Below are positions 1 to 54,901 of a stretch of 64,000 nt of DNA, one piece after another (positions within the stretch are counted from its first letter, which is position 1; each line of letters begins with the position of its first letter). This stretch comes from Nitrosospira sp. Nl5 (GTDB taxonomy: Bacteria > Pseudomonadota > Gammaproteobacteria > Burkholderiales > Nitrosomonadaceae). The notes under the pieces were generated by a model that ran no database searches, was not told the DNA's origin, and saw only the letters and a list, made by a program, of their open reading frames with translations. The position numbers were made by a program, and so were the translations under genes. Location of the stretch: contig NZ_FMVQ01000010.1 of the NCBI RefSeq assembly GCF_900102495.1, positions 1 through 64,000 of the forward strand, read 5' to 3'.

Positions 1-78
1 GAATGCAAATAGAATGAAAGTAGCGTTATCCTAACTCAGTCAATACCACCAGTATATTGGGGAAACCCTGGTTTTATA

Positions 79-95
79 CTAAGGGAAACCCTTAG
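79..95. repeat. Short perfect inverted repeat downstream of lpdA
   Basis: A 7-bp perfect stem (ctaaggg / cccttag) closes a 3-base loop. It lies about 150 bases beyond the lpdA stop codon, at the end of the long minus-strand operon. Neither side has a T-run, so it is not a convincing intrinsic terminator. It could be an RNA hairpin or a protein-binding site. A related gggaaaccct string occurs just before it, near position 60. Confidence 0.4.
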
Positions 96-243
96 ATGAT
101 AGGAAGTAGACATCTGGCGATATTGCAGTGGGTGCCATCGCATGGCCGGAGACGGAAAGTTGCCCCCCCATAAAAGCGGCCAACTGCGGGGATGACAGCG
201 GAAGGCCGTGTCTGGCGGCAGGAATGCAGGCTCAGCCCTCGGT

Positions 244-1698
244 CTATATATGAATCGCGCGTTTATCCACACCCAGCGCCGCTTCATGCAGCGCTTCCGA
301 TAACGAGGGGTGAGCATGAACGATGCGTGCGATATCCTCACTGCTGGCTGCGAATTCCATCGCCGTAACAGCTTCGGCAATCATTTCCGAAACGTAGGGG
401 CCGATCATGTGGATACCGAGGACGCGGTCGGTTCTTGCATCCGCCAGCACTTTGACGAAACCGCCCGTCTCGCCCAGGGCCCGCGCGCGTCCGTTTGCCC
501 TGAAGGGAAACTGTCCCGCTTTATATTGAATGCCCGCCGCTTTCAATTCCTGCTCGGTCTTGCCCACCCAGGCAATTTCCGGCGAGGTGTAGATCACCCA
601 TGGAATCGTGTCGAGATTTGCATGTCCAGCCTGACCCGCAATAGTTTCGGCAACTGCGACGCCTTCCTCGGATGCCTTATGCGCGAGCATGGGTCCCCGC
701 ACCACGTCGCCCACGGCATAGACGTTTGGCAGATTGGTTCGGCAACTGCTGTCTACTTCAATGTAACCTCGGTTATCCATTCTCAGCCCGGCATTCTCGA
801 CGCCCAGACCAGCGGTATTGGGAATACGGCCAACCGCGACGATCAGTTTGTCCACTTCCAGTTTTTGTGTTCCCCCCTGGGCATCAGCATATTCCAGGGT
901 AATATTTGTCCCGGCAGTTTCAACTCCGCTTATTTTGACGCCGGTTTGTATTATCAGACCTGATTCCCTGGTGAAGATTTTTCGCGCTTCCTTCGCCACT
1001 TGCTCATCGGCAGCCATGAGAAATCCGGGTAGCGCCTCAAGAATAGTGACTTCCGAGCCGAGCCTCCGCCACATGCTGCCCATTTCCAGACCGATCACGC
1101 CACCGCCGATCACACCCAGTCGCTTTGGCGCCTCCGTTAGCGCCAGCGCGCCGGTATTGTCCAGTATCCGCTCGTTGTCCACCAGGGCGAATGGCAATTG
1201 GCGCGGAGTTGAACCTGTGGCGATGATGATATGCTTTGCCTCGACGGTATCGGTCTGATCTCCGTTCTTCACTTCGACCCGCCATGTCATGTCGTTGCCG
1301 CTGTCACCATCTTCGCTATTCCCGAGCAGCGTTCCGCGCCCGTGCATCGAAGTGACTTTATTTTTTTTGAACAGCATGGCGACGCCGCCGGTAAAGTTCG
1401 AGACGATTTTATCCTTGCGGGATATCATTACGGGTACATCGATCGACAGCCCCTCCACGGTGATTCCATGCGCAGAGAACTTGTGTGCAGCACGCTCGTA
1501 ATTCTCCGAGGATTCCAGCAGCGCCTTTGACGGGATGCAACCCACGTTCAGGCAAGTGCCGCCAAGGCTGGGTCTGCCTTGCGGATTTTTCCATTCATCT
1601 ATGCAAACGGTATTAAGCCCCAACTGTGCGCAACGGATCGCGGCCACATAGCCGCCTGGACCCGCGCCGATTACCGCCACATCAAAAGATTGAGTCAT
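244..1698 (-). CDS. lpdA: Dihydrolipoyl dehydrogenase (E3)
   Basis: FAD-dependent E3 subunit that reoxidises the lipoyl group of 2-oxoglutarate dehydrogenase with NAD+. The 484-residue protein has the FAD-binding GAGPGG at 11-16, the redox disulfide in [13 protein letters not shown] (Cys49 and Cys54), a second nucleotide-binding GGGVIGLE near 200, and the catalytic HPSLSE near the C-terminus (His463, Glu468). Length and motifs are complete for the family. It is the last gene of the sdh-gltA-suc cluster, 78 bases after sucB, which makes a role with SucA/SucB likely; it may also serve pyruvate dehydrogenase. Confidence 0.96.
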
Positions 1699-3089: not shown

Positions 3090-5933
3090 TTAAATTTTCT
3101 CGCGGAACGCCGCCGCTACCAATTCCTTCTGCTGGAAATTGTGTTTTGCCAGGTATCCCACCGCCGGGGATGCCGACGACGAACGCAACGCGTAGCCCAG
3201 AACTTGATCGGAACGCATGTGGCGCAGCAGATAGTGCTGGATGCGGTGCCAGGCCCCCTGGTTGCCGGGTTCCTCCTGGCACCAGAGTATATCTCCGGCT
3301 TGCGGATAGCGCTCGATTTCAGCCTGAAAATCATCATGTGGAAATGGGTACAATTGCTCGATACGGATGATCGCTACATCGTCTATCTTGTTTTCCCGCC
3401 GGTAAGCGAGCAGGTCATAATAAACCTTGCCGCTGCATGCAATGACGCGCCGCACTTTTTTTGGATCAATTTTTTCGGTTTCGGGAATCACGTTCTGAAA
3501 ACCGCCATCGGCGAGATCCGCAAGGCTGGATACCGATTCCTTGTGACGCAACATGCTCTTCGGACTCATGATGATCAACGGCTTGCGCAGCGGCCGCACC
3601 ATTTGCCGTCGCAGTATATGAAACATCTGTGCGGGTGTGGACGGAACACATACCTGGAGATTGTATTCCGCGCATAGTTGAAGATAACGCTCCAGTCGTG
3701 CTGAAGAGTGCTCCGGTCCTTGCCCTTCGTAGCCGTGGGGAAGCATCATAACCAGGCCGCACAGCCGCCCCCACTTGGCCTCTCCGGAAGCGATGAACTG
3801 ATCTATCACCACTTGGGCGCCATTGGCGAAATCGCCGAACTGTGCTTCCCAAACCACCAGTTCGTCCGGTTCGGCGGTAGCATAGCCGTATTCGAAACCC
3901 AACACCGCTTCTTCCGACAATACGGAATCGATTATCGCGAAATCTGGCTGCTCCGGCGAAATGTGGCGCAGGGGAATATATGTGCCTTCGTTCCACCGTT
4001 CCCGGTTCTGGTCGTGAAGCACGGCATGGCGATGAAAGAACGTTCCCCGTCCTGAATCCTGCCCTGAAATGCGTACGGCAAAACCCTCGTTCAGAAGCGC
4101 CGCGTAGGCAAGATTTTCGGCCATCCCCCAATCCAGCGGCAGCTTGCCTTCGCCCATCAGGCGACGGTCGGCAATAATCTTTTCCACGCGTGAATGCAAT
4201 TTGAATTTGGCGGGAATATCGGTGAGACGTGCCGCCAGATTCCGTAGTTCCGCCAGCTGCAGCCCGGTTTTAACCTTGACATCCCATTTGCCGCCCTTGA
4301 GGAAGGGAGCCCAATCCACCGCATGGGACGATTTGTAGCCATACAGTATGGTTTTGTTAGGATTGCGGCCTGCGTCCATATCATCGCGATAGGCCTTTAC
4401 CATCTGTTCAGCCTGACCGGCGCTGACGATACCCTCGGTTTCCAGTTTATCGGCGTAGAGCTTGCGTGTACCCGGATGCCGGCCAATGATCTTGTACATC
4501 AGCGGCTGCGTCACCATGGGCTCATCCTGTTCATTGTGACCGAGGGTGCGGAAACAGACCATATCCACGACCACGTCCTTATGAAACCTCATCCGGAAAT
4601 CAAGCGCGATTTCGGTCACCATGATGACAGCTTCGGGATCGTCACCGTTGACATGAAAAATCGGTGCTTCGATCATTTTCGACACGTCGGTACAATACAG
4701 CGTGGAACGGGTGTCCCGCGGGTCGGAGGTGGTGAACCCAATCTGATTATTGATAATGATATGCACCGTGCCGCCCGTACCATATCCGCGCGTTTGCGAC
4801 AAATTGAGCGTTTCCATCACGACGCCCTGGGCTGAATACGCGGCGTCGCCATGCAGCAGTACAGGCAGCACCAGGTTGCCCTCCCTGTCTTGCAGGCGGT
4901 GTTGACGGGCGCGCACCGAGCCCTGCACCACGGGGTCGACAATTTCCAGATGTGAAGGATTGAATGCCAGTGTCAGGCGCATGACTCCGCCGGGAGTGGA
5001 TACGGCCGAGGAAAATCCCTGATGATATTTGACATCGCCTTCAGTGAGTTCCTGTGCATGCTTGCCTTCGAATTCCTGGAACAGGTCGGCCGGCACCTTC
5101 CCCAGAGTATTGACCAGCACATTAAGCCGCCCGCGGTGCGCCATGCCGATAATCATCTGCTGGACGCCCATCTGGCCGGCGCGCTGCAGCAGATTATCCA
5201 ATAGCGGTATCAGGCTTTCGCCGCCTTCACCGGAGAAGCGTTTCTGCCCGACATAGCGGGTATGCAGATATTTTTCCAGGCCTTCCGCCGCATTGAGACG
5301 CTCCAGAATATGGCGTTTGTATTCGGCCGAGTAATCGGGCTGCGCACGCGGGCCTTCGATGCGGTTCTGTATCCAGCGTTTTTGCTCGGTATCGGCAATG
5401 TACATATACTCCACGCCAATACTGCCGCAGTACGTTTGCTGCAGCGTCCGCAAAATCTCCCGCAGCGATGCACGGGCTGGACCGATCAGGGAACCGGTGC
5501 CGAATACGGTGTTCATATCCGACTCGGTTAACCCGTAGTGGGATGGATTGAGTTCCGGAACGTACGGTTTTTCCTGATGTTTGAGAGGGTCGAGACTGGC
5601 ATGACGAACGCCGAGAAAACGGTAGGCATTGATTAACTGCAGTACCGATATCTGTTTGCGCTCTGTTACGAGATCACCCCTTTCCCGCACGGTTTCCTGG
5701 ACAACATCCTGACCGTCCCGGCGTGGATGCTCTTTTGCGAGACGAATGAACGATTCTATTACGGGGCGATGCGGCACATCGTGGGAGGCTTGTCCCTGCG
5801 TTGGCAATTTATCAAAATATCCGCGCCACTCCACTGCAACCGATGCGGGATTTTGCAGATAATTCTCGTAAAGCTCTTCGATGAACGGCGCATTTGCGAC
5901 GAACAGTAAAGAGTCCTCGAACAGCTGCTTCAT
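3090..5933 (-). CDS. sucA: 2-oxoglutarate dehydrogenase E1 component
   Basis: Thiamin-diphosphate E1 that decarboxylates 2-oxoglutarate and succinylates the E2 lipoyl group. The 947-residue length is normal for E1o. The N-terminus carries the conserved E2-contacting region ([16 protein letters not shown]). [10 protein letters not shown] and the [18 protein letters not shown] stretch with following NNQIGFTT form the cofactor site. The C-terminal half has the conserved [12 protein letters not shown]. It lies 33 bases downstream of gltA and 17 bases before sucB, so the three are presumably cotranscribed. A full OGDH matters in an ammonia-oxidiser-like genome, because autotrophs were long thought to lack this step. 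Confidence 0.96.
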
Positions 5934-5966
5934 ATGGTTAAAACCCCGTTGTTTGGCAAAGCCGAA

Positions 5967-7265
5967 TTATTTACGTAATGCAATTGGCACGACATCCCTG
6001 GTGACAGCGCCCGTATAGAGCTGACGCGGACGTCCTATTTTATACTCGGGATCGGAAATCATTTCGCTCCACTGCGCAATCCAGCCTACAGTGCGAGCCA
6101 TCGTGAATATGGCGGTGAACATCGAGATCGGAATTCCCAAAGCACGCTGGACAATGCCGGAGTAGAAATCGACATTGGGATAGAGTTTCCTGGAGATGAA
6201 ATATTCGTCTTCCAGTGCGATTTTCTCCAGCTTCAGCGCCAGCTTGAACAAACGGTCGTCATGCAACCCCAGTTCGCTCAACACCTCATGGCAGGTTTCG
6301 CGCATCAATTTTGCACGCGGATCAAAATTCTTGTACACACGATGGCCGAAGCCCACCAGTCTGAAGCTGTCGTTCTTGTCTTTAGCGCGGTCGATATATT
6401 CCCCGATACGCGAGTCGTCACCAATTTCCTCCAGCATGTTCAAGCAGGCTTCGTTTGCGCCGCCATGCGCTGGCCCCCATAAGCAGGCAATTCCGGCGGA
6501 AATGCAGGCAAACGGATTTGCGCCGCTGGAGCCAGCAAGGCGGACGGTGGAAGTGGAAGCATTCTGCTCGTGGTCGGCATGCAGAATCAGGATGCGGTCC
6601 AACGCCCGCGCCAATACCGAGTTGGGTTTATATTCCTCGGTGGGAGTGGCGAACATCATGTGCATGAAGTTCTCCGCATAATTCAGGCAGTTGCGCGGGT
6701 AGACGAAAGGCTGTCCGATATTGTATTTATATGTCATTGCGGTGATGGTCGGTAATTTCGCTATCAGGCGGAAAGCAGACAGTTCGCGGTGCGAGGCATC
6801 GGAAATGTCCATCGCATCGTGATAAAACGCCGATAAGGCACCGACTACGCCAACCATCACCGCCATGGGATGGGCATCACGGCGAAAACCGGTGAAGAAG
6901 CGCGCCAGTTGCTCATGAACCATGGTGTGCTCCTTGATGGTTTTGTCGAACGAGGCCTTTTGATTTCTGGTAGGCAGCTCCCCATTCATCAGCAAATAAC
7001 ATACCTCCATGAAATCGCATCGCTTGGCCAGTTGTTCGATTGGATAGCCGCGATAAAGCAGGATGCCCTTGTCGCCGTCTATGAAAGTTATTTTGGAACT
7101 ACTGCTGGCGGTGGAAAGAAAACCGGGGTCGTAAGTAAACATCCCGCTCTTGGCATGCAAAGTACGAATATCCACCACATCCGGTCCCATGCTGCCGGAC
7201 ATGATGGGAAATTCAAGCGGCTGGCGGTTATCGAGATTGAGAGTCGCCGTATGTTTTTTTTCCAT
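5967..7265 (-). CDS. gltA: Citrate synthase, type I
   Basis: Condenses oxaloacetate and acetyl-CoA to citrate. The 432-residue protein has the N-terminal extension typical of type I, NADH-sensitive hexameric enzymes. Active-site landmarks are [27 protein letters not shown] and [14 protein letters not shown], which hold the expected catalytic His residues; the catalytic Asp lies in the C-terminal third. It differs from the shorter type II synthase encoded at 17404-18573, which sits with prpB. It is preceded by sdhE (45-base gap) and followed by sucA, a common proteobacterial order. Confidence 0.96.
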
Positions 7266-7310
7266 ATTTGTCCCTATTATTTCTTCCCCCCCGATAAAAC
7301 TACGAGGGAA

Positions 7311-7544
7311 TTAAATTGTTTGCAAAAGATACAGTACGGGCTGAAGGTTGCTATCCTCCACTTCTTTTCTCAGCGCGATCATTTCCCACAAGTCATTATC
7401 GGGAAGATTCAGCAATGTATCAAATTGCCGCAGCCCTGTTTCGTCCAGCTGAACGTAATGTACATCCATGAAACGTTGCAGCACGATATCAAGCTCCAGC
7501 AAACCACGCCGGCAACGCCAGCGGGCGCGCTCCAGTTCCTTCAT
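7311..7544 (-). CDS. sdhE: SdhE flavinylation factor (YgfY family)
   Basis: Small assembly factor that promotes covalent FAD attachment to SdhA. The 77-residue protein carries the family RGxxE signature as RRGLLELD near residues 12-19, followed by the usual all-helical core ([12 protein letters not shown]). It lies only 7 bases from the sdhB stop codon and immediately upstream of gltA, the conserved position for this gene. Family identity is clear; the function is inferred from the family. Confidence 0.9.
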
Positions 7545-50546: not shown

Positions 50547-50768
50547 CTGTCTCTCCTTTATTATGAGCCGTGCGATCAAGGGAGCCATCGCCAGGCGATA
50601 CTCTTGCATTCCATCACGAACTCAAAGTTCTGACGTCTTTTTTATGGCCCACAGACTTTAGAGCAACTCCCAGGGGTTCCAATTCCTGAGAATTTATTTG
50701 CAGGCATGATTAAAAGATCAACTGACGTTTACCTTCAAGCCGTACCATCCATTGTAGGGGCGATTCAG

Positions 50769-51281
50769 CTACCGTTGTGCCGGCATGGAAACAAATCGCC
50801 GGAAACGCCGCTGGGCATACCGCCTGGCAACTGCCAAAGCCGGCGGCCGTAGGAGTTTATACAGGAAGCGCACGACCCACGTTCGGGCCAGCACAATGGC
50901 CACCGCCAAGAGCACGCTATACCCGCCTGCCATTACATCAAAAATGAAAGTACCGGCGGGAAAGAGCAAAAAGAGGAGCCAGCTTCGCTGCACCCAACCG
51001 CGTATTCTTTGCAGGATAATTAATTTTTTCTGCAAAATAGTTGTGTGACGCTTCCACAATTCAGGCATGGCAAGCGCCTCCAGGGACAACGTGGTGACGT
51101 AATCCGAATCAAACTGGATTGTCGTTCGTATGCCTCGCCGGTCATAAACTTTGCCCTGATAGGCGGAGGATGTGGAGGATACGGTTATGTCTCCTTCCGG
51201 TTCGGCGACCAGCGTCACGACTTGCATACCGCCCTCGCTGACCATCTTAATCACGTCTTGCAAATCGCGCCACATACGCAT
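50769..51281 (-). CDS. Unknown membrane protein, gene 3 of a three-gene unit
   Basis: 170 residues, not recognised. The N-terminal 90 residues are soluble and beta-rich, with GDITVSSTSS and RTTIQFDSDYVTTLSLEALA, then MPELWKRH. A membrane hairpin follows (about residues 93-135: SWLLFLLFPAGTFIFDV, then YSVLLAVAIVLARTWVV), and the tail is strongly basic. The start ATG at 51281 overlaps the stop of the preceding gene by one base (TAATG), so translation is coupled. The TTIQxDxDxxTxL block also occurs in that neighbour (its residues 267-279), which suggests a shared domain. Confidence 0.7.
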   Translation of the reverse strand: MRMWRDLQDVIKMVSEGGMQVVTLVAEPEGDITVSSTSSAYQGKVYDRRGIRTTIQFDSDYVTTLSLEALAMPELWKRHTTILQKKLIILQRIRGWVQRSWLLFLLFPAGTFIFDVMAGGYSVLLAVAIVLARTWVVRFLYKLLRPPALAVARRYAQRRFRRFVSMPAQR

Positions 51282-52267
51282 TATGATAATCTGCTCGCCA
51301 CCCCTCGCCCAACAGCCAGCACCAGCTCTTTGGCAATGGTAATCAAATCCTTCCAATGGCACAAAGCGGTAGTTACTCCCGCATTATGATAGGATAATAA
51401 ATCCGGGTGCTCATCCATGCAATTCAGATTCAAGCGGGTAATCACATCCCCATCTACCTGAATAGTCGTCTGCATGGCAATGACTTCCGTCCCTACTTCC
51501 CACACCTTCCGTATCAACAATAATTCACTATCTTTCACGGGCAACGGTGGAAGATTCTCATCACTCACGATCTCTGACCGGGTGTATTGGTTGGTCAGAA
51601 CCAATGTTCGCTCCAAATCAATTTTTTGACTCAATTCCACCACCGTATTGGATGTCAATTTCTCCCGGGGAATCTTTTTCAGCTCTTCGATCAATCCCTT
51701 CTCTTTTAGCCTGTTATCACGCCTGCATATCGCGCTGAACATCCCTTTAAGCATGTCGGCATTATCTTTAATACGCGGCAGAACAGAGAGCTGCCTATTC
51801 TCCAGGTATTCTTTTTTCTTGGGGTCTTCCAAAAATCGATCAGCCCAGGCACACATAATATCCAACGCACCAAATCCACCCAACTGCCACTCCACCGATG
51901 GCTGCACAACCAATCGCACCTTCTTGTCATCTTGCGTACTGTTGTCTATCTCTTCCTGCGTATAAAACCCCCCTCCGCGCCGCATATCGTTGAATTCCGC
52001 AGTTCCAAATTTTACAGTTCGGCTCTCTATTTGCTCATTTCCACTTTTCCGCAAAAGAAAACGGCAACGAGACAGCTCCATTTCTCTCAAGATTTCAAAA
52101 TATTCTTTACCAATATCTACCATGGCGTGCCGGAGGCTGGGCATTTTCTGCGCGGAAATTTTATCTTTTAAAATGGTATTGACCTCAATATTGAACAAAT
52201 CCTTGACAATATCCGTGAATTGCCCTGCAGCGCCCTCCATTTTGTCGGTAGTGTCTTTTTCCGCCAT
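51281..52267 (-). CDS. Unknown protein, gene 2 of a three-gene unit
   Basis: 328 residues, no family recognised and no signal peptide or membrane span. The N-terminal half is charged and helical, with MRRGGGFYTQEEIDNS near 95-110 and VVQPSVEWQLGGFGALDIMCAWADRFLED (centre 121-147). The middle (150-225) is Lys/Glu-rich. The end carries VIAMQTTIQVDGDVITRLNL with HPDLLSYH, the module shared with gene 3. The ATG at 52267 has AAGGAG. It lies 133 bases after gene 1. Confidence 0.72.
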   Translation of the reverse strand: MAEKDTTDKMEGAAGQFTDIVKDLFNIEVNTILKDKISAQKMPSLRHAMVDIGKEYFEILREMELSRCRFLLRKSGNEQIESRTVKFGTAEFNDMRRGGGFYTQEEIDNSTQDDKKVRLVVQPSVEWQLGGFGALDIMCAWADRFLEDPKKKEYLENRQLSVLPRIKDNADMLKGMFSAICRRDNRLKEKGLIEELKKIPREKLTSNTVVELSQKIDLERTLVLTNQYTRSEIVSDENLPPLPVKDSELLLIRKVWEVGTEVIAMQTTIQVDGDVITRLNLNCMDEHPDLLSYHNAGVTTALCHWKDLITIAKELVLAVGRGVASRLS

Positions 52268-52400
52268 GAGATGACTCCTTGGAAATAATCTTTTTCGTAA
52301 ACTTCAACCCGTTACAATGGAAGAAGCCACATCATCTGAGCCATCTGCTGGTTCCAGCAAACGATGTTGTGACCTCAAATGATCTTGTGGCTGGCCAGGA

Positions 52401-52829
52401 TTACGTCCCGCCCCCACCGACACTTTCGGATTGCCTGGCGCGCTTTTGAGTATTGACAGCCTCCAGAATGTCGCCGACGGCTTTAACCAGGGCGAGCAAG
52501 GTTTGCACGTTCTGATTTACAATTTGCTGCGCACTCTTGATGCGCTCCATATGGTCGTCGCGGATGCTGGCATAGATCGCATCCTTGGCAAACACCTCAT
52601 CCATAACCGTCATTATGTCGCCGTCAATCAGGTCGATCGTGCTGAGAATGGCTTTGGCATTCTGATAATTTTCGGAACGGGTTTCGTGAGTCGTGTCATC
52701 TTCGGTAACGCTGCTCTGACTGATAGTCACATCGCCTACAGCCGTGACCACCTTTAACGTTGTCAGATTCTTTACCGCATTTTCAATCTTGTCATACAAC
52801 TCATCAAATGAAGTCTTTGGGTCGGCCAT
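52401..52829 (-). CDS. Unknown small protein, gene 1 of a three-gene unit
   Basis: 142 residues, acidic, soluble and predicted mostly helical with a beta-hairpin near 26-40 (VVTAVGDVTISQSS). That hairpin resembles the VVTLVAEPEGDITVSS of gene 3. STIDLIDGDIMT (63-74) weakly resembles the TTIQxDGDxxT block of genes 2 and 3. The C-terminus is a Gln/Ser/Gly tail ending in GGGGT. The ATG at 52829 has a perfect AAGGAG. Function unknown. Confidence 0.7.
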   Translation of the reverse strand: MADPKTSFDELYDKIENAVKNLTTLKVVTAVGDVTISQSSVTEDDTTHETRSENYQNAKAILSTIDLIDGDIMTVMDEVFAKDAIYASIRDDHMERIKSAQQIVNQNVQTLLALVKAVGDILEAVNTQKRARQSESVGGGGT

Positions 52830-53160
52830 TTTGTATCTCCTTGATTTGCTAACCGCTTACACGGGAAGATAAAAGATGAGGTGGATTGCAGCCTCAATCC
52901 CAAGCTACCTCAAAAATGTGACTAGGTCAAATGCATAGATATTTTATGCCTACGAGGGAGAATGGGAGAAAATATGGTTTAATTCGAAAACAGGCGCTGC
53001 CACTGTCCTTAGTGTTCGCCGAGGATTTCCAACTGTGGAAACGCGTGGCGCGCTGCAAGTTCAGGAGGCGGCGATAGTCAGTGCAGCCTGCATTATTCCT
53101 TTGCACTTACAAAAGATTCTGGCAGTTCGAAGAGCATGATTAAACGCTTAGATTCTTCTA
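52830..53160. other. Divergent intergenic region, three-gene unit / djlA
   Basis: A 331-base gap that should carry the promoter for the three-gene unit (minus) and djlA (plus). An AT-rich patch lies around 52930-52990. I see no gene or strong repeat. Confidence 0.4.
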
Positions 53161-54006
53161 ATGCCTGGAGCGAAGGCCAGTTATTTCGCTCACTATGACC
53201 TACTTTTTTTCACATTATCCGCAGGAATTCCCTTGTTTAAGATAATTGGAGTTTTATTAGGCTATTACTTCCTGGGTATTTTCGGCGCGTTCGTCGGATA
53301 TCTCGTGGGAAGTTTTATCGATCGTTACAGAGCTTATGGGATGGGCGCCATTAATCCGCTCACGAATGCCCATCGCCAGACAGTTTTTATTGAAACCGTT
53401 TTCATTTTGATGGGAAAGCTTGCCAAAGCGGATGGGCATATTTCTCAAGACGAGATTGATCATGTTGAAAACTTCATGCAGAAGCTGGGGATGTCGTCGG
53501 ACCATCGGCAGCTGGCAATTGCCCTGTTTAAGCAGGGAGCATCGCCGGATTTTGATGTCGAGTCCAAGCTGAAAGAGTTTATGGCGGTTTGTGGACATAC
53601 GAACAGCCTGAAGCAGATGCTGCTGATTTATCTTATCGTCATGGCGCTTTCTGATGGGGTGCTGGATGCGGCCGAGGAGGGTTTGCTAAAAGATTTTGCT
53701 CTGCATTTGGGCTACGATCAGTCTGCGTTCCAGCAACTGCTGCGCATGGTGATAAACCAGTCCCATTTTGCCGGTGGTCAAGCAACCTCCGCCACTGCTT
53801 TGGATGACGCTTATAAAGCGTTGGGCGTAAGTAAGGAAAGCAGCAATCAGGAAATCAAGCGTGCTTATCGAAAGCTGATGAGCCAGTATCATCCCGATAA
53901 ACTCATGGGGCAGGGCGTTCCGGAAGACATGATTTCGATGGCTACCGCACAAACGCAGGAAGTACAGGCCGCATATGACCTGATTAAAAAGAGCCGCAAT
54001 ATGTAG
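53161..54006 (+). CDS. djlA: DnaJ-like membrane co-chaperone DjlA
   Basis: 281 residues in the DjlA order: one N-terminal hydrophobic, Gly-rich membrane segment (about 18-52), a TerB-like helical domain (70-195) with AKADGHISQDEIDHVE, and a C-terminal J domain (about 215-281) with YHPDKL (His244-Pro-Asp). The J domain stimulates DnaK ATPase. Two cysteines only. It has a weak ribosome site at 53161, and no closer in-frame ATG would keep the membrane segment. Confidence 0.9.
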   Translation: MPGAKASYFAHYDLLFFTLSAGIPLFKIIGVLLGYYFLGIFGAFVGYLVGSFIDRYRAYGMGAINPLTNAHRQTVFIETVFILMGKLAKADGHISQDEIDHVENFMQKLGMSSDHRQLAIALFKQGASPDFDVESKLKEFMAVCGHTNSLKQMLLIYLIVMALSDGVLDAAEEGLLKDFALHLGYDQSAFQQLLRMVINQSHFAGGQATSATALDDAYKALGVSKESSNQEIKRAYRKLMSQYHPDKLMGQGVPEDMISMATAQTQEVQAAYDLIKKSRNM

Positions 54007-54178: not shown

Positions 54179-54901
54179 TCACAATATCCCGTCGGCACTA
54201 GGAGGGCATGCACGCAGCCGCTTCTTTACATGATTGTAGGATATCGGTGAGTCAATCGCGCGGTGGGCCGATGCAACACCCTGCATTAATCGTTGCTGAA
54301 AGGGCTTCAGCACTCCTTCCGCCCACGGCTGCAAGTCGGCTTGCGCCTGAGTTCTGGATGCATAGTAACGTGGCTGGGAAAAAGCGCGCCGCAAAGGATC
54401 TTCCAGCAATTTTGCACCGATGCGGAAGTGGGACTTCCAGGCAGATACATGCTCGAGTTCGTGTTCACGAACAATGTTTTTTCTGCAACTATCCTGAAGC
54501 TCCCGAGCGAGATAAACCCGCATTGCCGAAAATCCCATTTTTACTGAAACATCTGGCACCATGCAGGTTTGTCCCACAGGGCTGATGCCCCACCGGGGTT
54601 TAATTTCGTAGCTGAATGTCGGTTCAGCCTGTGTCAGGCCATACACGTTATGATGCGGATCACTGGTCTTGCCCGATAGCGATTTAAGGGATTTCAAGGT
54701 GTGTGAGCTGTTTTCGGAAGCAGCAATGTCCATGAACGTAACCACTACCGCAACGGTCTCACCCAGCTTTATGCATGCAGTCCTGAATTCGTCATTGCTA
54801 GCCCAGGCCGCATCGTTTTGCATCAATAGCAGCAATACCAGCGAGGGGAAAAAAAAGTGTATCCGGGTTCTGTAACCCCGCTCTTGCAACATCGGTTTCA
54901 T
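54179..54901 (-). CDS. Exported HExxH putative metalloprotein
   Basis: 240 residues with a signal peptide (hydrophobic core about 14-30, cleavage near AWA, residue 34). A zinc-type motif HELEH occurs at 147-151 inside VREHELEHVSAWKSH; the third metal ligand may be His158. Three further Cys (43, 113, 139) may form disulfides. The family is not recognised with certainty; it resembles secreted proteins annotated as DUF922-like, but the match is weak. It is isolated: djlA converges and the transporter operon lies upstream on the same strand. Confidence 0.65.
   Translation of the reverse strand: MKPMLQERGYRTRIHFFFPSLVLLLLMQNDAAWASNDEFRTACIKLGETVAVVVTFMDIAASENSSHTLKSLKSLSGKTSDPHHNVYGLTQAEPTFSYEIKPRWGISPVGQTCMVPDVSVKMGFSAMRVYLARELQDSCRKNIVREHELEHVSAWKSHFRIGAKLLEDPLRRAFSQPRYYASRTQAQADLQPWAEGVLKPFQQRLMQGVASAHRAIDSPISYNHVKKRLRACPPSADGIL

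Follow-up and report, generated by a model that had tools for sequence, protein, structure and literature searches.

Three adjacent minus-strand genes in the window (the whole 64,000-nucleotide stretch of the Nitrosospira sp. Nl5 genome analyzed here) raise the question of whether their products, which we call g1, g2, and g3, form a dedicated set and, if so, what kind of assembly they may build. An earlier note on this DNA had proposed a soluble pair and a membrane partner built on one module, possibly a sensor or effector assembly at the membrane. Re-reading of the sequence confirmed the coordinates, strand, and adjacency given there, and the AAGGAG sites before g1 and g2 and the TAATG junction between g2 and g3 are all present (Table 1). 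By a hydropathy rule, the window proteins g1 and g2 have no hydrophobic spans and g3 has two (residues 102 to 120 and 122 to 140) followed by a basic tail, in keeping with the soluble and membrane roles that had been assigned to them. The same rule gave at least two spans in 12 of 19 rows of g3 homologues, one span in 5, and none in 2, so that by this rule the two-span hairpin is seen in part of the homologues. Across eight chosen relatives and the window, the g2-g3 gaps range from -4 to 15 and the g1-g2 gaps from 5 to 24, except for 133 in the window and 292 in locus L008. Promoter and terminator counts showed no excess over shuffles.

Table 1. Positions in the window of the three genes, their ribosome sites, the parts of their modules, and the inserted DNA
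Feature	Coordinates	Strand	Description
g1	52401..52829	-	142 aa, soluble, acidic, pI 4.6; homologues in alignment A8
g2	51281..52267	-	328 aa, soluble; homologues in alignment A7
g3	50769..51281	-	170 aa, membrane partner; start overlaps g2 stop as TAATG; homologues in alignment A9
AAGGAG ribosome site of g1	52837..52842	-	7 nt ahead of g1
AAGGAG ribosome site of g2	52275..52280	-	7 nt ahead of g2
g1 module, residues 4-137	52419..52820	-	alpha1, beta1, inserted beta hairpin, beta2, beta3, long alpha2 in the predicted model (pLDDT 80.8; strand assignment by our reading)
g2 module, first half, residues 11-33	52169..52237	-	alpha1-beta1, from the model and hhalign against the g1 N-terminus
g2 insert, residues 34-261	51485..52168	-	mostly helical in the model; residues 76-127 with pLDDT <50
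g2 module, second half, residues 262-327	51287..51484	-	TTIQVDGDVITRL hairpin and alpha2 with H294
g3 module block, residues 50-86	51024..51134	-	TTIQFDSDYVTTLSL through H79 and past; blastp and hhalign
g3 two-span hydrophobic hairpin, residues 102-140	50862..50978	-	hydropathy
Insert DNA	50566..53193		no blastn match at the site in seven relatives compared

Scans with Pfam, NCBIfam, and PADLOC returned nothing of weight for g1, g2, or g3 of the window, which agrees with the earlier failure to place them in any family. In PADLOC-DB 2.0.0, the sole match up to E = 1 was to g1 at E = 0.04, with zero for g2 and g3. Seven weak g1 matches came from PHROGs, the best being phrog_23460 (E = 5e-4), a family without function; this match and the Acid_PPase and SpoOE-like Pfam matches were set aside as weak library matches. 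When 22 g1 homologues (E up to 0.1) and 23 g2 homologues (E up to 10) were scanned against Pfam, no family matched more than one member, and two single-member matches appeared at E of ~2e-4. A sequence search of solved structures gave nothing below 0.3 for the g2 or g3 profiles and one match below E = 0.01 for each g1 profile, in both cases a short helical match to chains of engineered spike protein. We rejected these coronavirus spike segments (E = 1e-7 with alignment A2 and 0.0044 with A8), as they cover merely 21 to 24 positions of the helical end. Finally, a search of the open-access literature under narrow terms (accessions, and YbaB fold or paralogue plus membrane) found no description of the set.

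The relationship among the three proteins emerged from profile comparison. As single sequences, the g2/g3 block is detected by blastp at E = 3e-4, and the other pairs are weak (E = 0.034 for g1-g3 and 1.4 for g1-g2). With alignments of 19 to 23 homologues per protein, hhalign gave P = 4.8e-7 for g2-g3, 1.2e-6 for g1-g2, and 6.6e-4 for g1-g3; none of 200 column shuffles reached the observed score for any of the three pairs, and reversed profiles scored far below it. The block that the earlier note had read in g2 and g3 is thereby statistically supported, and its fainter echoes in g1 correspond to a module shared with both partners, with the exception of one N-terminal echo discussed below. The profiles align over one region, the TTIQxDGDxxT hairpin with its following helix. 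Within it, G70, D71, and H93 of g1 are each invariant (22 of 22 rows), as are the hairpin glycine and aspartate and the helix histidine in g2 (23 of 23); the g3 equivalents are kept in 19 of 19 rows for the first aspartate, 17 of 19 for both the glycine and the second aspartate, and 15 of 19 for the histidine.

Cross-detection by HMM (cut-off of E <1e-3, with Z set to 5000) linked g2 to each of the other proteins: the g1 model found 10 of 23 g2 sequences, the g2 model 4 of 22 g1 sequences, and the g3 model 8 of 23 g2 sequences. At that cut-off it fails between g1 and g3, and the g2 model found no g3 sequence (best E = 0.022). Compared separately from the hairpin region, g1 and g2 also align at their N-terminal ends (P = 2.5e-5; 0 of 150 shuffles). 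This N-terminal part of the module was also looked for in g3 by profile comparison and was not found: against g1, the g3 N-terminal end gave P = 0.33, with 8 of 150 shuffles reaching the score, and against g2, 56 of 150 shuffles did so. The echo noted earlier between g1 VVTAVGDVTISQSS and g3 VVTLVAEPEGDITVSS is consequently unsupported. As judged from these alignments, the three proteins share one module and descend from it at least in part.

The same gene order occurs in Azospirillum, Sphingomonas, Acetobacteraceae, relatives of Beggiatoa, and a Nitrosomonadales genome, so that the trio is found together in distant Proteobacteria. The g2 relative in a genome of the same family has 69% identity (L002, the same record as the Nitrosomonadales MAG L008). 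Using tblastn, we found seven Azospirillum plasmids with a match, and in all five that were opened, g1, g2, and g3 (their identity checked by alignment) stand in the same order right after ParA and ParB genes; one representative set is that of Azospirillum brasilense Sp7, a tractable laboratory strain. A profile search of genome contigs with the g2 alignment A1 yielded 13 loci, eight of the Azospirillum type (one of these labelled Roseomonas genomospecies 6) and one each from a Nitrosomonadales MAG, Sphingomonas natans, an Acetobacteraceae MAG, a Beggiatoa MAG, and a Proteobacteria MAG. All 13 Azospirillum-type loci that were read carry the three genes. The set is sparse in genome searches: it was found in 2 of 101 relatives including the window genome, in 1 of 398 genomes of the phylum sample (the window genome itself), in 6 of 385 genomes from the class of the Sphingomonas genome and 1 of 7 from its genus (that genome included in the first count and alone in the second), and in 10 of 42 from the order of the Beggiatoa genome, again including that genome. 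In each of seven source genomes that were searched in full, there is a single g2. Phages gave no g2 match, and viral contigs none for A1 or the g1 alignment A2.

To score gene order, HMMs from alignments A4 to A6 (eight members each) were run on 27 loci, several of which are model members or near them. The g1 and g2 genes are adjacent and co-oriented in all 27 loci (the contig of L044 begins within g1), and g3 lies beside g2 in 23 of the 27, with E no higher than 6e-4. Locus L048 was left out of the g3 count since the HMM match there is g2 itself; a g3-like frame is visible by eye at 6589-7029 on the minus strand, with a weak model score of 3.6 bits. The 14 loci found after the first models (L044 to L057, all via g2) all have an adjacent g1, and 10 of them have an adjacent g3. 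The gene after g2 in L050, L052, and L055 is other than g3. When eight genomes were searched with the g3 alignment, each proved to have the gene, and in the genomes of those three loci (G903, G888, and G927) it resides on a different contig (E = 1.9e-17, 6.3e-18, and 7.2e-28, respectively), where the frames read in L134 to L136 have no g1 or g2 near them. That g3 is kept even when it is not beside g2 is, in our view, the strongest indication that the three proteins form a set. Pairwise divergence is likewise correlated, with Mantel r values that partly mirror shared species history of 0.92 for g2-g1 (22 genomes), 0.88 for g2-g3 (19), and 0.85 for g1-g3 (18); 0 of 1,000 permutations reached the observed r for each pair. 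Conserved order, unlinked g3 in three of three genomes, and correlated divergence all speak for the dedicated set proposed earlier. It is well supported that two soluble proteins and one membrane protein, built on one module, make up a dedicated, co-inherited set; these findings speak neither for nor against the sensor or effector role suggested earlier. This conserved set is undescribed in the literature searched and is missed by curated libraries.

Two genes near the unlinked g3 frames were recorded in passing. Beside g3 in L136 lies a 914-aa predicted membrane protein (4708-7452) with a GQRRMGKTSLL motif, which we take to be ATPase-like, preceded by a gene with what is presumably an HTH-like start. 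In L134, the gene at 4614-6098, presumably a RarA-like ATPase, holds in-frame runs of the short peptides ARVPGH, ARVPGD, and ARVPGN, as if small repeats had spread within the coding sequence.

In the window, the set is flanked by a GST gene and a TerB-DnaJ gene, which are neighbors in all 22 other genomes of the genus. The distance between matched ends of these two genes is 89 to 454 bp in the 22 genomes versus 2,617 bp in the window, and the blastn matches of the seven relatives compared end at 50557-50565 and resume at 53194-53224. None of the 22 genomes has g2. The simpler reading is that the set is a 2.6-kb insert acquired in this lineage, since the alternative needs 22 losses. A search of the window for tRNAs found none, and no repeat stands out at the insert edges, where there are short, chance-like pairs only.

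Neighbor genes vary between lineages and, for that reason, give little help on function. A small J-domain protein (Pfam DnaJ) is encoded directly after g3 in L051 (9234-9680) and L053 (6861-7307), and the TerB-DnaJ gene adjoins g1 in the window. A J-domain link to the set was nevertheless dropped, because the TerB-DnaJ gene adjoins the GST gene in 22 of 22 same-genus genomes without g2 and is thus an ancestral neighbor. Proteins alike by eye (IHQMQMSFV...) precede g1 in L050 (8235-8786) and L054 (6654-7199), and that of L050 has no Pfam match. The product of a further window gene (54179-54901, 240 aa) has a signal-like start, contains an HELEH motif, and drew no match from Pfam.

With the aim of relating the module to known folds, we compared AlphaFold2 models of g1 and g2 with solved structures. 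The g1 model (pLDDT 80.8) is predicted to run as a helix, five strands, and a long helix, and the g2 model (a modest pLDDT of 70.8, with residues 76 to 127 unreliable) as a helix, a strand, a long helical insert, two strands, and a helix. Foldseek against the PDB gave no significant match, the best E being 0.12 for each of the models, and the g1 model drew no match at E = 0.001 when compared with viral folds. In a second-look aligner, the four top structures for g1 are all YbaB proteins (1j8b, 1ybx, 3f42, and 1pug, with Z of 6.6, 6.2, 6.0, and 6.0), 1j8b aligning over 88 of 92 residues and the next row falling to 4.5; these values, with a best of 6.6 and rmsd of 5 to 7 Å, lie below the Z of 8 under which a match can be a common arrangement. 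For g2, Escherichia coli YbaB (1pug) comes first (Z = 6.3, 88 of 94 residues aligned, model range 5..324), Helicobacter pylori HP0035 (3f42) second (6.2), and Rv3716c (5yrx) fifth (5.0), again with Z below 8 throughout. Between these rows stand an iron-binding protein (5.4) and a BAR protein (5.1), both helical and unrelated; helical rows of the BAR and ferritin-like kinds were returned for the g2 insert.

These five structures are the ones named in the available portion of a YbaB review, which describes the topology alpha1-beta1-beta2-beta3-alpha2 and a homodimer shaped like tweezers that binds DNA (PMC9610160). By our reading, both predicted models follow this order, with extra material after beta1, namely, a beta hairpin in g1 and a helical insert of about 228 residues in g2. 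The YbaB/EbfC family (PF02575) would therefore share with g1 and g2 its element order and the best-aligned solved structures. It also shares acidity: g1 proteins have a pI of 4.4 to 5.2 and 60 proteobacterial YbaB proteins one of 4.6 to 6.8 (median, 5.1). Acidic charge as a case against DNA binding was dropped; since those YbaB proteins are acidic too, the acidity of g1 decides nothing on this point. The set differs from YbaB/EbfC in its insert after beta1, in forming a unit of three paralogues, of which one has a membrane hairpin, and in having no significant profile similarity. Compared by hhalign with 30 YbaB sequences, g1 to g3 gave P of 0.02 to 0.24, and with 62 sequences, P of 0.12 to 0.29, with the score reached by 18 of 60 shuffles for g2, 7 of 60 for g1, and 1 of 60 for g3; we consequently dropped sequence homology to YbaB. 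PF02575 is absent from the Pfam matches of the window proteins (E up to 1), the 22 g1 homologues (0.1), and the 23 g2 homologues (10). The same model finds YbaB in 97 of 101 genomes, and the single match in the window genome is on another contig. The set may work like YbaB, but given the negative profiles and the lack of a PF02575 match, we do not file it as a member. A likeness of g1 and g2 to YbaB at the level of the fold only is plausible rather than proven.

We consider the chances about even that the three related modules build a heteromeric scaffold resembling YbaB, with g3 as its anchor in the inner membrane. The module would most likely have the YbaB/EbfC-like order alpha1-beta1-beta2-beta3-alpha2; g1 would be a near-bare module with a beta hairpin after beta1, g2 the same module, into which about 228 residues of helical character are inserted after beta1, and g3 probably the beta2-beta3-alpha2 part followed by the two-span membrane hairpin and basic tail. 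Under the positive-inside rule, a basic tail past the hairpin fits a cytoplasmic C-terminus. Because the hairpin and tail come after the module, the g3 module should face the cytoplasm. There, the three modules may pair via their beta sheets, like the subunits of a YbaB homodimer, into a mixed scaffold that g3 would anchor to the inner membrane, with the long helices of g1 and g2 holding a cargo, either DNA or a partner protein. The YbaB-like fold and the ParA-ParB neighbors in one lineage suggest DNA. A partner protein is suggested by EspL of Mycobacterium tuberculosis, which has a predicted YbaB-type domain and, in the available part of its description, stabilizes other proteins, a precedent for a role beyond DNA (PMC6319747). 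EspL differs in being a single protein of the ESX-1 system.

Other readings of the set deserve weighing. It is possible, though rather unlikely, that the resemblance to YbaB is coincidental and that the module has an alpha-beta fold of its own, in which case g1 and g2 might form a ligand-binding or chaperone pair and g3 their membrane receptor. The absence of a significant Foldseek match, the negative comparison with YbaB profiles, and the pattern of invariant G-D and H that g1 and g2 have as their own speak for this reading, but solved YbaB structures head both second-look rankings, and the predicted order of elements matches theirs. A more specific form of the scaffold, in which g1 and g2 would clamp DNA and g3 would fix the clamp, making a portable membrane tether for nucleoid or replicon DNA, seems unlikely to us.

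We hold as distinctly unlikely that the genes are an accessory conflict cassette of the phage defense or toxin-antitoxin type, with g3 as a membrane effector restrained by g1 and g2. The sporadic occurrence (2 of 101 relatives, counting the window genome, and that genome alone among the 398 of the phylum sample), the clean 2.6-kb insertion at an otherwise constant site, and the neighbors that change between loci would all suit such a cassette. Against it count the lone PADLOC match up to E = 1 (g1, at E = 0.04), the lack of matches to g2 in phages and to A1 and A2 in viral contigs, the full trio in 13 of 13 Azospirillum-type loci, and the three genomes in which g3 sits on a separate contig, an arrangement that a self-contained cassette would seldom show. 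Very improbable, in our assessment, is a part in replicon partition, whereby the set would work in Azospirillum with the ParA-ParB pair. That pair is directly upstream of g1 in each of the five annotated Azospirillum plasmid loci that were opened (from a total of seven), but the association is confined to one lineage, and no such pair was seen outside Azospirillum among the neighbors listed (by eye, with 10 proteins scanned against Pfam). A gene that we take to be Mrp-like, with a P-loop, stands some kilobases from the set in L050 and L055.

The membrane-anchored scaffold remains our preferred reading of a conserved three-component system that is now defined and comes with a structural hypothesis open to test. 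If the fold holds, it would show that a plain nucleoid-protein module can be divided by an inserted domain and brought to the membrane to form a hetero-assembly.
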